DNA of 64,000 nucleotides from Desulfosporosinus sp. Tol-M (GTDB lineage: Bacteria; Bacillota; Desulfitobacteriia; Desulfitobacteriales; Desulfitobacteriaceae). The notes under the pieces were generated by a model. That model worked only from the letters and a program-made list of their open reading frames with translations. It did no database searches and had not been told where the DNA came from. The position numbers and the translations under genes were made by a program. Below, piece by piece: positions 54,632-60,165 of this stretch (positions are counted from its first letter, which is position 1; each line of letters opens with the position of its first letter). The DNA lies in the NCBI GenBank assembly GCA_000770645.1, contig JQID01000123.1:67761-131760 (forward strand), in the 5' to 3' direction.

Positions 54632-55393
54632 ATGGTTCCGGTAGAATTTTGCTTTCTGGAGAAACTAAACAATGTTCAAATGCGTTTGCGCCAAGAAATA
54701 AACATGAAGCCAGAGAGTTTTGAGGAATTGGTTCAGCTGAATATGGATGAACTTGATCGAACAGTAAATCCGGCGATTGTCTTAGCTGTAAGCCGAGCTT
54801 TTAAAGAACATGGACGAAAATCAGAAGCATTGGCGGGAATTATTCAATTTTTATTTATGGCCAATAAAGTCCATAAATTAATGAAAGAGGATAGTGATAT
54901 CGCGGAAGAACTGCGACAATTTCCGGTACTGGTTGGGGATTTACTATATGGAAAGTTTTTTCTGGAGCTCTGCAGTGAGAAGCTGCTTCCATTTCTAGAC
55001 CCACTTGCTCAAGTCATGGGAACGATGAGTGAGGGGGGAATTTCCCGCTGGCTTTCCCGTGACAAAAAACTTGGGTTGGCGGAGTCGCTTAAAATAATTG
55101 GAAGGGAGAGCGCGTCATTAACAGCATTGGCAGCCCGTCTAAGTGCGGAACTCGCAGGGGTTTCAGTTCCTTTACAGCATAAAATTGAAGCTTTTGGCTG
55201 GGAATTAGGATTAGCATGGGGAGCATGGAAAGAACGTTTGGAGAATATCGAGGTTCAATCGATCCTTCAGCGGGCGAATGCTATCTTGAATGAGATTTCG
55301 TCTGAGTCGCAGCTTCAGTTACACCCCCTCCGCGAAGTGTATCTTTTCATGGCGAAGCAGCTGAACGGAGATTACAGTCCCCAAGAGGCATGA
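54632..55393 (+). CDS. degenerate prenyl-synthase-like protein (putative HepT partner)
   Basis: VNPAIVLAVSRAF and LVGDLLYGKFFLEL align by eye with LRPAFTLLAG and VQTGDYLLAKSLML of the hepT product; Asp-rich motifs absent. Confidence 0.55.
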   Translation: MVPVEFCFLEKLNNVQMRLRQEINMKPESFEELVQLNMDELDRTVNPAIVLAVSRAFKEHGRKSEALAGIIQFLFMANKVHKLMKEDSDIAEELRQFPVLVGDLLYGKFFLELCSEKLLPFLDPLAQVMGTMSEGGISRWLSRDKKLGLAESLKIIGRESASLTALAARLSAELAGVSVPLQHKIEAFGWELGLAWGAWKERLENIEVQSILQRANAILNEISSESQLQLHPLREVYLFMAKQLNGDYSPQEA

Positions 55394-55414: not shown

Positions 55415-56269
55415 ATGCAAAAACTTAAAGTCTTTTTCCAAATGATTAAATTTGAACATACCCTTTTTGCCCTTCCTTTTGCGTATCTAGGCGCCTTTTT
55501 AGCTGCAAATGGTGTTCCGCCTGGTCTCAAACTTTTCTGGATTACGCTGGCTATGATAGGGGCCCGGACGGCAGCGATGTCCTTGAACCGTTTGATTGAC
55601 CGGCATATTGATGCACGTAACCCCCGAACGGCGCAAAGAGCACTGCCGACAGGGGTGTTAAGAGTGAATGAAGTCTACTTATATACTTTGTTCTCTTTCC
55701 TGCTCCTTGGCTTTTCGGCGTACCAACTCAATATTTTGGCTTTGAAGTTAATGCCGATTGCTGTTTTTATTCTTGTCTTATACTCCTATACAAAAAGGTT
55801 TACCTGGGCTTGCCATATCGTATTGGGAATTGCACTGGGTTTGGCTCCGGTGGGAGCCTGGATTGGGGTAACCGGTCATTGGGATCTGGCGCCCGTTCTT
55901 TTAGGGTTAGGGGTCATGACTTGGGTCGCGGGCTTTGATGTTGTCTATGCCTGTCAGGATGTGGAGTTTGATCGCCGGGAGGGGCTTAGCTCAATTCCTG
56001 CAGTTTTTGGTTTGCAGAGAGGTTTAGAGATTTCATCGGGATTGCATATTATTGCGGCCTTCTTTTTTATAGCCGTCGGAGTGGTAATGTCTATGAGTTG
56101 GTTGTACTACGTAGGTGTCGCGATTGCCGGCGTGTTACTCTATTGGCAGCATCGCCTTGTCTCGGCGGACGACTTTTCGAAGATCGGAGTTGCTTTTTTC
56201 GACCTTAATGGCTACTTAAGTCTCTTACTTTTTGTATTTTCAATTCTGGATTTAACCTTATTGCGATAA
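55415..56269 (+). CDS. UbiA family prenyltransferase (menaquinone-type)
   Basis: AMSLNRLIDRHIDARNPRTAQRALPTG, GFDVVYACQDVEFDRREGLSSIP. Confidence 0.88.
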   Translation: MQKLKVFFQMIKFEHTLFALPFAYLGAFLAANGVPPGLKLFWITLAMIGARTAAMSLNRLIDRHIDARNPRTAQRALPTGVLRVNEVYLYTLFSFLLLGFSAYQLNILALKLMPIAVFILVLYSYTKRFTWACHIVLGIALGLAPVGAWIGVTGHWDLAPVLLGLGVMTWVAGFDVVYACQDVEFDRREGLSSIPAVFGLQRGLEISSGLHIIAAFFFIAVGVVMSMSWLYYVGVAIAGVLLYWQHRLVSADDFSKIGVAFFDLNGYLSLLLFVFSILDLTLLR

Positions 56270-56287
56270 AGGAAAGGTGGGTATGCT

Positions 56288-56959
56288 TTGTCCTCACTGT
56301 TTGCGCCAAGTGAACTCTTTGACTTGATAGAAAAAGTCGAAAAGGGCGAACGATTAGACCGTGACGACGGTGTGCGCTTGATGAACAGTCAAGATATCCT
56401 GGCGCTTGGGTATATGGCTAATATCGTGCGCGAAAGAAAAAACGGAAATCAAACTTTTTTTATTATCAAGCAACATTTAAATTATACCAATGTCCACGAT
56501 GCAACGATGTTTTACGGAAACATGGAGTCTGCGGAGGAGCAGATTGACCATTTATTGCAGTTGCGAGTACTGCAGGACCAAAAAGGGGAGGTTCGGTCCT
56601 TCATAGCGCTTTCCTGTTATCCTAAAGATACAGTATTAGCAGGAACGATGGGTAATGGAACTACAACGGGTATTGATGACTTGAAAGTGCTGGCGATTTC
56701 CAGGATCTTACTTGATAATTTCGATCATATTAAAGCCTCTTGGATCATGCTGGGTCTCAAATTGGCCCAGGTTTCTCTGGCCTTTGGGGTTGATTGTTTA
56801 GAGGGTAACATAGTTGAGGAACGAATTAGTCACTCAGGAGGGGTGGATCTTAGTCAAGGTATGACTAAACGAGCCATGATCCACATGATTCAAAAAGCAG
56901 GTCGGGATGCGGTGGAACGGGACGGGTTAGGGGGATCTGCATGCAAACGGAGACCTTGA
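56288..56959 (+). CDS. MqnE homolog lacking the radical SAM core (internal in-frame deletion)
   Basis: 223 aa; HLNYTNV joined directly to HDATMFYGNMESAEEQIDHLLQLR; no CxxxCxxC. Confidence 0.8.
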   Translation: MSSLFAPSELFDLIEKVEKGERLDRDDGVRLMNSQDILALGYMANIVRERKNGNQTFFIIKQHLNYTNVHDATMFYGNMESAEEQIDHLLQLRVLQDQKGEVRSFIALSCYPKDTVLAGTMGNGTTTGIDDLKVLAISRILLDNFDHIKASWIMLGLKLAQVSLAFGVDCLEGNIVEERISHSGGVDLSQGMTKRAMIHMIQKAGRDAVERDGLGGSACKRRP

Positions 56960-58023
56960 GAATCATAGAGAAACGTCTGGAGGGTGAACGGCTATCCATC
57001 GCGGATGGGATCAAACTATTTCAAGATGCAGATCTTCTTTCTCTGGGTCAAGGGGCGGATCTCGTCCGGGGGCAGATGCATCCGCAAAAAAGGGTGACAT
57101 TTGTTATTGACCGGAATATAAATTACACAAATGTGTGTTCTTGTCAATGCAAGTTTTGCGCCTTTTATTGTAAACCTGGAGACACAAACGGTTATATTTT
57201 GTCACAGGACGAATTACATGTTAAGATTGAAGAAACAATTAACGTTGGGGGGACTCAGCTTTTAATTCAAGGGGGATTGCATCCGGACTTGGATCTGGAG
57301 TACTTCGAAAATCTTTTGCATGATATTAAAGCTCATTACTCCATTCATATTCACTCGTTCAGTCCTCCGGAAATATGGGACCTTGCAAATAAATCCAAGT
57401 TGTCTGTTCAGGAAGTCATCTTGCGTCTTAAAAATGCAGGCTTGGATTCAATTCCTGGGGGTGGGGCAGAAATCCTGGATGACCGGGTTCGTCATCTAAT
57501 CAGCCCTAACAAAATAAGCTGGCAACAATGGATGGACGTGATGACTGCAGCACACAAGTTGGGCATGAAGACGACCGCAACCATGATGTTTGGGCATGTC
57601 GAGACGTTGGAGGAACGAATTTTACATATGGTACGTGTTCGAGAGGCTCAGGATCAAACGGATGGATTTACGGCCTTTATTCCTTGGAGTTTTGCGCCTG
57701 CCAACACATTGCTTGGCGGAGAAGGAAGTACGGGGGTCGAGTACCTGAGGACACTCTCGGTCGCCCGCTTAATGCTCGATAACGTCCCCAATATCCAAGC
57801 GTCTTGGGTTACCCAAGGAGCCAAGATGGCGCAGGTGGCTTTACGTTTTGGGGCGAATGATTTTGGGAGTACCATGCTGGAAGAAAATGTCGTTCGTGCC
57901 GCCGGCGTACAAACGCGTGTCCCGTTACAGGAGATTATTCGTTGCATTGAAGGTGCGGGTTATCAGGCTGTTCAACGCAATACGCACTACGAGTTGCTAA
58001 AGGTGTACGGGAAGGGAGTGTAG
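56941..58023 (+). CDS. mqnC: cyclic dehypoxanthinyl futalosine synthase MqnC (radical SAM)
   Basis: RNINYTNVCSCQCKFCAFYC, GGTQLLIQGGLHPDL, HIHSFSPPEI. Confidence 0.88.
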   Translation: MQTETLRIIEKRLEGERLSIADGIKLFQDADLLSLGQGADLVRGQMHPQKRVTFVIDRNINYTNVCSCQCKFCAFYCKPGDTNGYILSQDELHVKIEETINVGGTQLLIQGGLHPDLDLEYFENLLHDIKAHYSIHIHSFSPPEIWDLANKSKLSVQEVILRLKNAGLDSIPGGGAEILDDRVRHLISPNKISWQQWMDVMTAAHKLGMKTTATMMFGHVETLEERILHMVRVREAQDQTDGFTAFIPWSFAPANTLLGGEGSTGVEYLRTLSVARLMLDNVPNIQASWVTQGAKMAQVALRFGANDFGSTMLEENVVRAAGVQTRVPLQEIIRCIEGAGYQAVQRNTHYELLKVYGKGV

Positions 58024-58799: not shown

Positions 58800-59189
58800 A
58801 TGGGTATGAGCGAAATCCTCTTGATTATGGTTATTGTGCTTATTTTGTTTGGGCCTGAAGATTTGCCGGATATCGCTCGAACAATTGGGAAAGTGGTTTT
58901 CCAAATTCGAAAGGCAACCAATGATATGGCCAAAGAATTCCAAAAATCAAATCTGGATAACCCGGTTAATATGATCAACAAAGCATTTGAGCAGACGACG
59001 TCCTCTCATGTTACCTTGACACAAAATGAGCAAAGTAGGACGGACGATCATAAGACCGATGATGAATTGTTAACGCATGAGGATGAAAACCCAGCCTCGG
59101 AGGAACCGTCCAAGACGAAGTCGGAAGATCCTCTAGCCGAACTACCAATAGATATGGTATCTTATGAAGAAAAGGGTGCGAGCAGGTGA
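58800..59189 (+). CDS. tatA: TatA/TatB-like protein
   Basis: MSEILLIMVIVLILFGPEDLPDIARTIGK. Confidence 0.88.
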   Translation: MGMSEILLIMVIVLILFGPEDLPDIARTIGKVVFQIRKATNDMAKEFQKSNLDNPVNMINKAFEQTTSSHVTLTQNEQSRTDDHKTDDELLTHEDENPASEEPSKTKSEDPLAELPIDMVSYEEKGASR

Positions 59190-59196
59190 ACCGGTT

Positions 59197-60165
59197 TTGA
59201 AACAACTCTGGCTCTTTAATCAAATAAATGCAGATTTGCAGCGGGTTGAAAAAGAACTGACCAAATTTGTGGAGACGGATTATCCGATTCTCCAGGATTC
59301 GGCTGTTCACTTATTAGCTGCCGGGGGAAAACGGTTACGCCCGGCTTTTACGCTCTTAGCCGGAAAATTCTATGGATATTCCCTGGAAAAGTTAATGCCG
59401 GTGGCCATGGCCTTAGAACTTATTCATATGGCCACGTTGGTTCATGATGATGTCGTTGATGCATCGATGATCAGAAGAGGGAGCCCGACGGTTAAAGCAA
59501 ACTGGGGTAATATAGTATCCGTACAAACGGGAGACTACTTGTTAGCTAAATCATTGATGCTCATTTCGAAGATTGATCATCCAGAGGTCGCACGTATATT
59601 AGCAGAGGTCAGTGTTGAAATGTGCCAAGGGGAGATTCAGCAGATTAATTGTTCCTTTGACGTCGAGCAAAACTTAAAACAGTACTATTACCGTATAAAA
59701 CGTAAAACGGCCTTATTAATCTCCGCCTGTTGCAGACTGGGTGCTTTGGTTTCGGGAGCTCCCAGTCGTCAAGTTTGGGCACTGGGTGCTTATGGACATT
59801 CGCTGGGAATGGCTTTTCAAATTGTCGATGATGTTTTGGATTTAACGGCCAAGCCCTCCGAATTTGGGAAACCAATTGGGGGAGATTTGCACCAGGGCAT
59901 TATGACATTACCCATGATTCTGGCCTTGAAATCGTCCCCGAACCCTTCCCACTTAAAGGCCTTGCTGGGAAAAATAGACAAAACGGATGAAGAAGTGGGG
60001 GAAACGATTGAACTGATCATCAGTACCGGGGCGATCGATGAGTCGATGCATTTGGTCGATTTATATGTTTTGAAAGCCAAAAAACATCTGCGGGCTCTTC
60101 CCCAGGTCCCAGCACGGAAAGCTTTGGAAGAGTTAGCTGAGTTTATCGGGGTTCGGAAGTTTTAG
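59197..60165 (+). CDS. hepT: polyprenyl (heptaprenyl-type) diphosphate synthase large subunit
   Basis: GGKRLRPAFTLL, LVHDDVVDASMIRRG, FQIVDDVLDLTA. Confidence 0.88.
   Translation: MKQLWLFNQINADLQRVEKELTKFVETDYPILQDSAVHLLAAGGKRLRPAFTLLAGKFYGYSLEKLMPVAMALELIHMATLVHDDVVDASMIRRGSPTVKANWGNIVSVQTGDYLLAKSLMLISKIDHPEVARILAEVSVEMCQGEIQQINCSFDVEQNLKQYYYRIKRKTALLISACCRLGALVSGAPSRQVWALGAYGHSLGMAFQIVDDVLDLTAKPSEFGKPIGGDLHQGIMTLPMILALKSSPNPSHLKALLGKIDKTDEEVGETIELIISTGAIDESMHLVDLYVLKAKKHLRALPQVPARKALEELAEFIGVRKF

Follow-up and report, generated by a model that had tools for sequence, protein, structure and literature searches.

Can a gene for a radical-SAM enzyme that has lost its radical-SAM core in frame still encode a working protein, and if so, what would that protein do? 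This question is raised by a locus of Desulfosporosinus sp. Tol-M, which we analyzed within a stretch of DNA of 64,000 nucleotides (the window). The original prediction, made from the sequence of the window, explained the gene either by an assembly or strain deletion or by retention of a non-catalytic fragment of MqnE (aminofutalosine synthase) that might act as a partner of MqnC or another radical SAM enzyme. It proposed to look for a second full-length mqnE and for other short MqnE proteins and to determine dN/dS of the remnant.

An MqnE Gene without Its Radical-SAM Core

As had been predicted, the radical-SAM core is deleted in frame from an open reading frame, which is intact, encodes 223 aa from a TTG start, and is directly preceded by a purine-rich, Shine-Dalgarno-like stretch, AGGAAAGGTGG (Table 1). 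The MqnE model TIGR03700 matches it in two stretches, model positions 2–57 and 205–346 of 351, with a score of 216.9 bits against a cut-off of 434.55. These stretches are fused at NYTNV-HDATM (the hyphen marks the junction). Alignment to full-length orthologs showed that 146 aa are missing, where about 140 had been estimated. The CxxxCxxC motif is absent, and a Pfam search gave no match of the frame to Radical_SAM (PF04055), which scored 71 bits in the neighboring MqnC. The CofH/MqnC C-terminal region (CofH_C, PF19288) was recognized at 44 bits, above its cut-off of 27. Judged by its sequence, the remnant is unable to bind the catalytic [4Fe-4S] cluster via the known motif, and known radical-SAM chemistry is excluded because the cysteine motif is lost. 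Deletion through short direct repeats was rejected, as today's sequence has no direct repeats around the junction. We refer to this operon copy of MqnE as E1 and to a second, full-length MqnE encoded elsewhere in the genome as E2.

Table 1. Features at the truncated mqnE locus of the window
Feature	Position	Strand	Basis
Divergent polyprenyl-synthase-like ORF without DDxxD	54632..55393	+	PF00348, 26.9 bits, just below the cut-off of 27
mqnP prenyltransferase, directly upstream of E1	55415..56269	+	At most 344 bits with MqnP models, short of the curated threshold (430); TIGR01475 threshold passed; synteny
Putative Shine-Dalgarno-like purine run AGGAAAGGTGGG	56270..56281	+	6 nt before the TTG start; read directly
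E1, whole ORF	56288..56959	+
N-terminal MqnE segment, residues 1–69 (helices and first strand, to NYTNV)	56288..56494	+	TIGR03700 2–57
Junction V69-H70, 146 aa of radical-SAM core gone (CxxxCxxC to β4/α4)	56492..56497	+	Ortholog alignment
C-terminal segment, residues 70–223 (β5–β8 and C-terminal helices; CofH_C)	56495..56956	+	TIGR03700 205–346; PF19288; structure model
Most constrained block, residues 125–173, TTGIDDLKVLAISRILLDNFDHIKASWIMLGLKLAQVSLAFGVDCLEG	56660..56806	+	ω
E1 C terminus encoded across the ribosome-binding site and start of mqnC, ending in GLGGSACKRRP and stop	56920..56959	+
mqnC, full length, CxxxCxxC present	56941..58023	+	TIGR03699, 499 bits, cut-off 428
Canonical polyprenyl diphosphate synthase (catalytic)	59164..60165	+	PF00348, 240 bits

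The menaquinone cluster of the window is ordered as the divergent polyprenyl-synthase-like ORF, mqnP, E1, mqnC, a TatC-like ORF (named from sequence reading alone), and the canonical polyprenyl diphosphate synthase. The full-length mqnC expected directly after E1 is indeed there, and its start codon lies inside the 3' end of E1, with an overlap of 19 nt. The order hepS-mqnP-E1-mqnC-tatC is conserved among relatives: wherever the locus is assembled, E1 has mqnP on one side and mqnC on the other, and no Desulfosporosinus genome with an assembled locus separates E1 from mqnC. In the genomes inspected, the E1 stop codon adjoins the start of mqnC or overlaps it. The ancestral E1 end, TLYRVLKTN, has been replaced by read-through in the window, in G004 and G012, and probably in G025.

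MqnC belongs to the same superfamily as the remnant and has the CofH_C region in common with it. Unlike the remnant, this cyclic dehypoxanthinyl futalosine synthase is intact and catalytic, and bit scores place the remnant nearer to MqnE (217) than to MqnC (143). Full-length MqnE orthologs of D. acididurans and related genera occupy the same operon position. Compared with MqnE of Pedobacter heparinus (PDB 6xi9/6xig), the best structural match, which it resembles over residues 1–69 and 70–213, the remnant lacks the CxxxCxxC motif, the GGGAE segment, and strands β2–β4.

The Short Form Is Shared by Related Genomes

Assembly collapse or a deletion specific to the Tol-M strain had to be considered, given an assembly of 206 contigs (98.85% complete) with an estimated contamination of 8%. 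Among 31 Desulfosporosinus genomes, two (G005 and G023) have contigs that end before E1; 25 of the remaining 29 carry, at the same locus, a truncated E1 devoid of CxxxCxxC. The short form is present in three single-contig assemblies (G003, G007, and G018) and in isolates that include D. fructosivorans, D. metallidurans, and D. nitroreducens, and the junction of the window, TNV-xDATM, is found in its clade. Four Desulfosporosinus that branch early (G008, G009, G015, and G027) have a full-length E1 of ∼373 aa with CxxxCxxC. The gene is also full length, with the motif, in G032, G033, and G035, which represent three further genera of the family, and truncation recurs in each of the three genomes (G036, G038, and G040) that represent a second family of the same order. 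These relatives refute an artefact or strain deletion, which is left with a negligible probability. By sequence comparison, the short form is a lineage-specific conserved state, because it recurs at one locus in 25 genomes, finished single-contig ones among them, and in the second family; such recurrence also means that the truncated architecture is not a matter of chance.

As a control, 399 Bacillota genomes were sampled, 103 of which have a relative. Among the best matches listed for the other Bacillota (∼95 genomes, where the gene is full length with CxxxCxxC), all lie in open frames of at least ∼360 aa except for one contig-edge fragment, and, with that same exception, the matches listed place the short form only in Desulfosporosinus and the second family. 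An apparent Cys-less MqnC (L044, in G025) was rejected because it reflects a run of N.

The Same Core Appears to Have Been Excised Repeatedly

Trees were built from six concatenated proteins and from the retained columns of E1 together with mqnC. In both, the Desulfosporosinus genomes with a full-length E1 branch off before the truncated clade, a branching that the retained E1 columns alone do not resolve. Intermediate forms were found as well. E1 of G016 has 326 aa, retains ∼115 aa of the core, and lacks the 16-aa cysteine loop; in the tree of E1 columns and mqnC this genome groups with G002/G017/G026/G030 (support 92/85), in which the whole core is gone. E1 of G001 and G013 (∼264 aa; 263) retains ∼45 aa of the core, and these genomes too are placed within the truncated clade.

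Six classes of junction can be told apart, in step with the tree: TNV-xDATM in the clade of the window, NVC(S/G)DLDN.TNATM in G022 and G029, TDR.NATM in G002/G017/G026/G030, ASF....(H/R)S.ATM in ten genomes, and two that are partial forms (G016; G001/G013). The second family has junctions of its own. The deletions repeatedly spare the same two segments of E1, and no genome with an assembled locus has lost them. The six classes suggest that the same β2–β4 core was excised repeatedly. The cysteine loop may have been lost once, in the ancestor of the Desulfosporosinus truncated clade, with the remaining core removed several times thereafter. At least three independent excisions would be needed, namely in the second family, in the G002/G026 group, and in the remaining clades; counting by junction class would give six or seven, an uncertain number since the deep forks are poorly supported. 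The natural series of full-length, Cys-less 326-aa, ∼264-aa, and ∼225-aa forms offers material for studying the passage from enzyme to pseudoenzyme.

The Remnant Is under Purifying Selection

A codon model was fitted on the tree with truncated E1 from 24 genomes. The dN/dS ratio (ω) of truncated E1 was 0.209 (2ΔlnL of 883 versus ω = 1), about fivefold higher than the 0.038 of full-length E1; mqnC gave 0.072 in the same truncated-clade genomes. By segment, ω was 0.18 in the N-terminal part, 0.27 after the junction, 0.077 in residues 125–173, and 0.34 in the C-terminal tail, and ω = 1 was rejected for every segment (2ΔlnL of 66 to 444). Because part of this tree may predate truncation, the test was repeated on six independent close pairs, each with a common junction class and thus diverged after truncation. 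In these pairs ω was 0.246 for truncated E1 (P = 1e-32), compared with 0.08 for mqnC and 0.11 for E2; by segment it was 0.18 in the N-terminal part (P about 2e-13), 0.127–0.169 in residues 125–173 (P about 4e-11), and 0.44 in the tail. With ω at 0.21–0.25 and ω = 1 rejected, the remnant therefore codes for a protein that selection constrains, though less strongly than its catalytic relatives. These results support the retained non-catalytic fragment that the original prediction offered as its second explanation.

A disrupted frame and ω of about 1 would mark a pseudogene; the frames of the truncated copies are open. The gene could still be decaying, held in frame only through translational coupling to mqnC: ribosomes would have to arrive at the mqnC start, which would permit length-changing deletions in frame but no frameshifts. 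The contact between E1 stop and mqnC start seen in the inspected genomes, the many in-frame deletions in E1, and the elevated ω would all fit such coupling. However, coupling leaves amino acids far upstream unconstrained, and ω is 0.08–0.17 in residues 125–173 and 0.18 in the N-terminal segment, after truncation too; nor does coupling account for deletions that repeatedly spare the same two segments. We therefore consider this explanation unlikely, with a small residual chance of slow decay because ω is about five times that of full-length E1 and the tail is strongly relaxed (0.34–0.44).

Structural Residues Are Kept and Active-site Residues Drift

AlphaFold2 gave a compact half barrel for the remnant (pTM 0.81, mean pLDDT 81, and 119 residues at pLDDT ≥ 90, compared with pTM 0.90 for the full-length protein), a model that is supportive and non-independent, since its alignment contained full-length homologs and the parental fold may be projected onto the fragment. 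Its best PDB matches in Foldseek were the MqnE structures 6xig and 6xi9 (E = 3e-14). According to the model, the remnant would consist of the first strand and the last four (β1 and β5–β8), which would be neighbors in a closed TIM-type barrel. Such neighbors might form a split half barrel that closes by pairing with itself or with another half. No matching β2–β4 fragment was found in the Tol-M genome, and we consider this arrangement improbable. The missing core as a separate gene was likewise rejected, the other TIGR03700 matches in that genome all lying in frames of at least 333 aa.

The short forms have kept the N-terminal helices (SELxDL and LALGYMANxVREKN) and the block DLKxLxISRILLDNFDHIK...G.KLxQVS..FGVDDL, including the LDNFDHIKAFW region. 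Relaxed in the short forms and invariant in full-length E1 are RHINHTN after the first strand, the H of YGHxE, and VVEERIIH; the relaxed residues cluster at the ends of the barrel strands, on the active-site side. This pattern bears on whether the remnant might bind or buffer a small-molecule intermediate of the futalosine pathway and need no protein partner. In favor of such a role, half of the substrate barrel is still present together with the CofH_C region; against it, the residues that drift are those facing the active site, and we hold the role to be no more probable than a split barrel.

A Second MqnE Probably Completes the Futalosine Pathway

The search for another full-length mqnE was successful: in the Tol-M genome (G000), a family search located E2 at G000:C34:16349-17386, scoring 442 bits, above the cut-off, with CxxxCxxC. 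The same genome encodes two PF02621 proteins, the number that MqnA and MqnD would account for. With E2, MqnC, and the two PF02621 proteins present, the futalosine pathway is, by family matches to these members, otherwise complete without catalysis by truncated E1.

E2 is encoded in most of the other genomes too. It was not detected in four short-form genomes (G014, G019, G036, and G040). In G014 and G019, the E2 neighborhood is missing or on a broken contig, so that these genomes are uninformative about biological loss of E2. In G036 (loci L074 and L150; 96% complete), two PF02621 proteins, MqnC, and only a truncated MqnE were seen, and no full-length MqnE was found; either the assembly has a gap here, or the pathway would dispense with full-length MqnE. 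In G009 (G009:C3), both MqnE copies are full length but a single PF02621 protein (MqnA or MqnD) was detected, although the assembly has only 3 contigs.

A Proposed Non-catalytic Subunit

E1 is the homolog of an enzyme, has lost the catalytic motif, and is conserved by selection, which together define a pseudoenzyme. Because its structural residues are kept and its active-site residues lost, mqnC is adjacent, and a second MqnE is present, we favor, as the reading with somewhat better than even prospects, that E1 is a radical-SAM pseudoenzyme that acts in the futalosine pathway as an accessory subunit without catalytic activity, with MqnC or E2 as the likeliest partner. A partnership with MqnC or another radical SAM enzyme, as first proposed, is thus plausible. 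MqnC would be the first candidate, because the genes are adjacent in every assembled Desulfosporosinus locus and overlap here, and E2 the second; a test of evolutionary-rate covariation gave no significant correlation with MqnC or E2 and favored neither. That independent excisions with near-identical ends cut E1 down to a half-barrel, obligate or regulatory subunit of MqnC or E2 is a more specific version, which we put forward tentatively and at rather less than even chances.

For the accessory subunit, the following course is conceivable. E2 would have taken over aminofutalosine synthase activity and released E1 from catalysis, leaving it a structural or regulatory job. E1 would then have lost the [4Fe-4S] cysteine motif in one Desulfosporosinus clade, and the intervening core would have been excised in several lineages, while the N- and C-terminal parts stayed in frame and formed a contiguous half barrel with terminal helices. 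The remnant may bind MqnC or E2 and stabilize the enzyme or hold sequential enzymes together.

Such a job can be likened to that of the subunits without DDxxD that are described for heteromeric prenyl diphosphate synthases of the HepS/HepT type (PMC7839719). The likeness is one of working principle only, a homolog without catalytic motifs being needed as the partner of an active enzyme; fold and chemistry are unrelated to the MqnE remnant. The E1 cluster itself has a candidate pair of this kind, since the divergent ORF and the canonical synthase in Table 1 are probably its non-catalytic and catalytic members.

Futalosine genes have been noted in Desulfosporosinus orientis, in a paper that does not name mqnE on its own or mention a short form (PMC12388241), and our search of the open-access literature turned up no article that treats a core-less MqnE or the MqnE of Desulfosporosinus. 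If our reading is correct, the futalosine pathway would have a heteromeric organization that is undescribed in the open-access papers searched. A selected remnant points to a complex in which MqnE or MqnC of Desulfosporosinus would work and, lacking the Fe-S/SAM core, would separate catalytic from non-catalytic roles of the radical-SAM fold. In other bacteria, the pathway is under discussion as a target for antibacterials, and a previously unknown subunit would bear on how its enzymes are assayed.

Two observations concern the other MqnE proteins. A third MqnE-like protein of 367 aa (L086, G030:C520), with 44% identity to the C-terminal part of the E1 remnant, is encoded on a 2.4-kb contig and is possibly contamination. 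E2 of the Tol-M genome (L001) lies barely over the MqnE cut-off (442 versus 434.55 bits), whereas full-length E1 of the sister-genus genome G032 scores 499 bits, so that the copy that was replaced appears to be the more typical MqnE.
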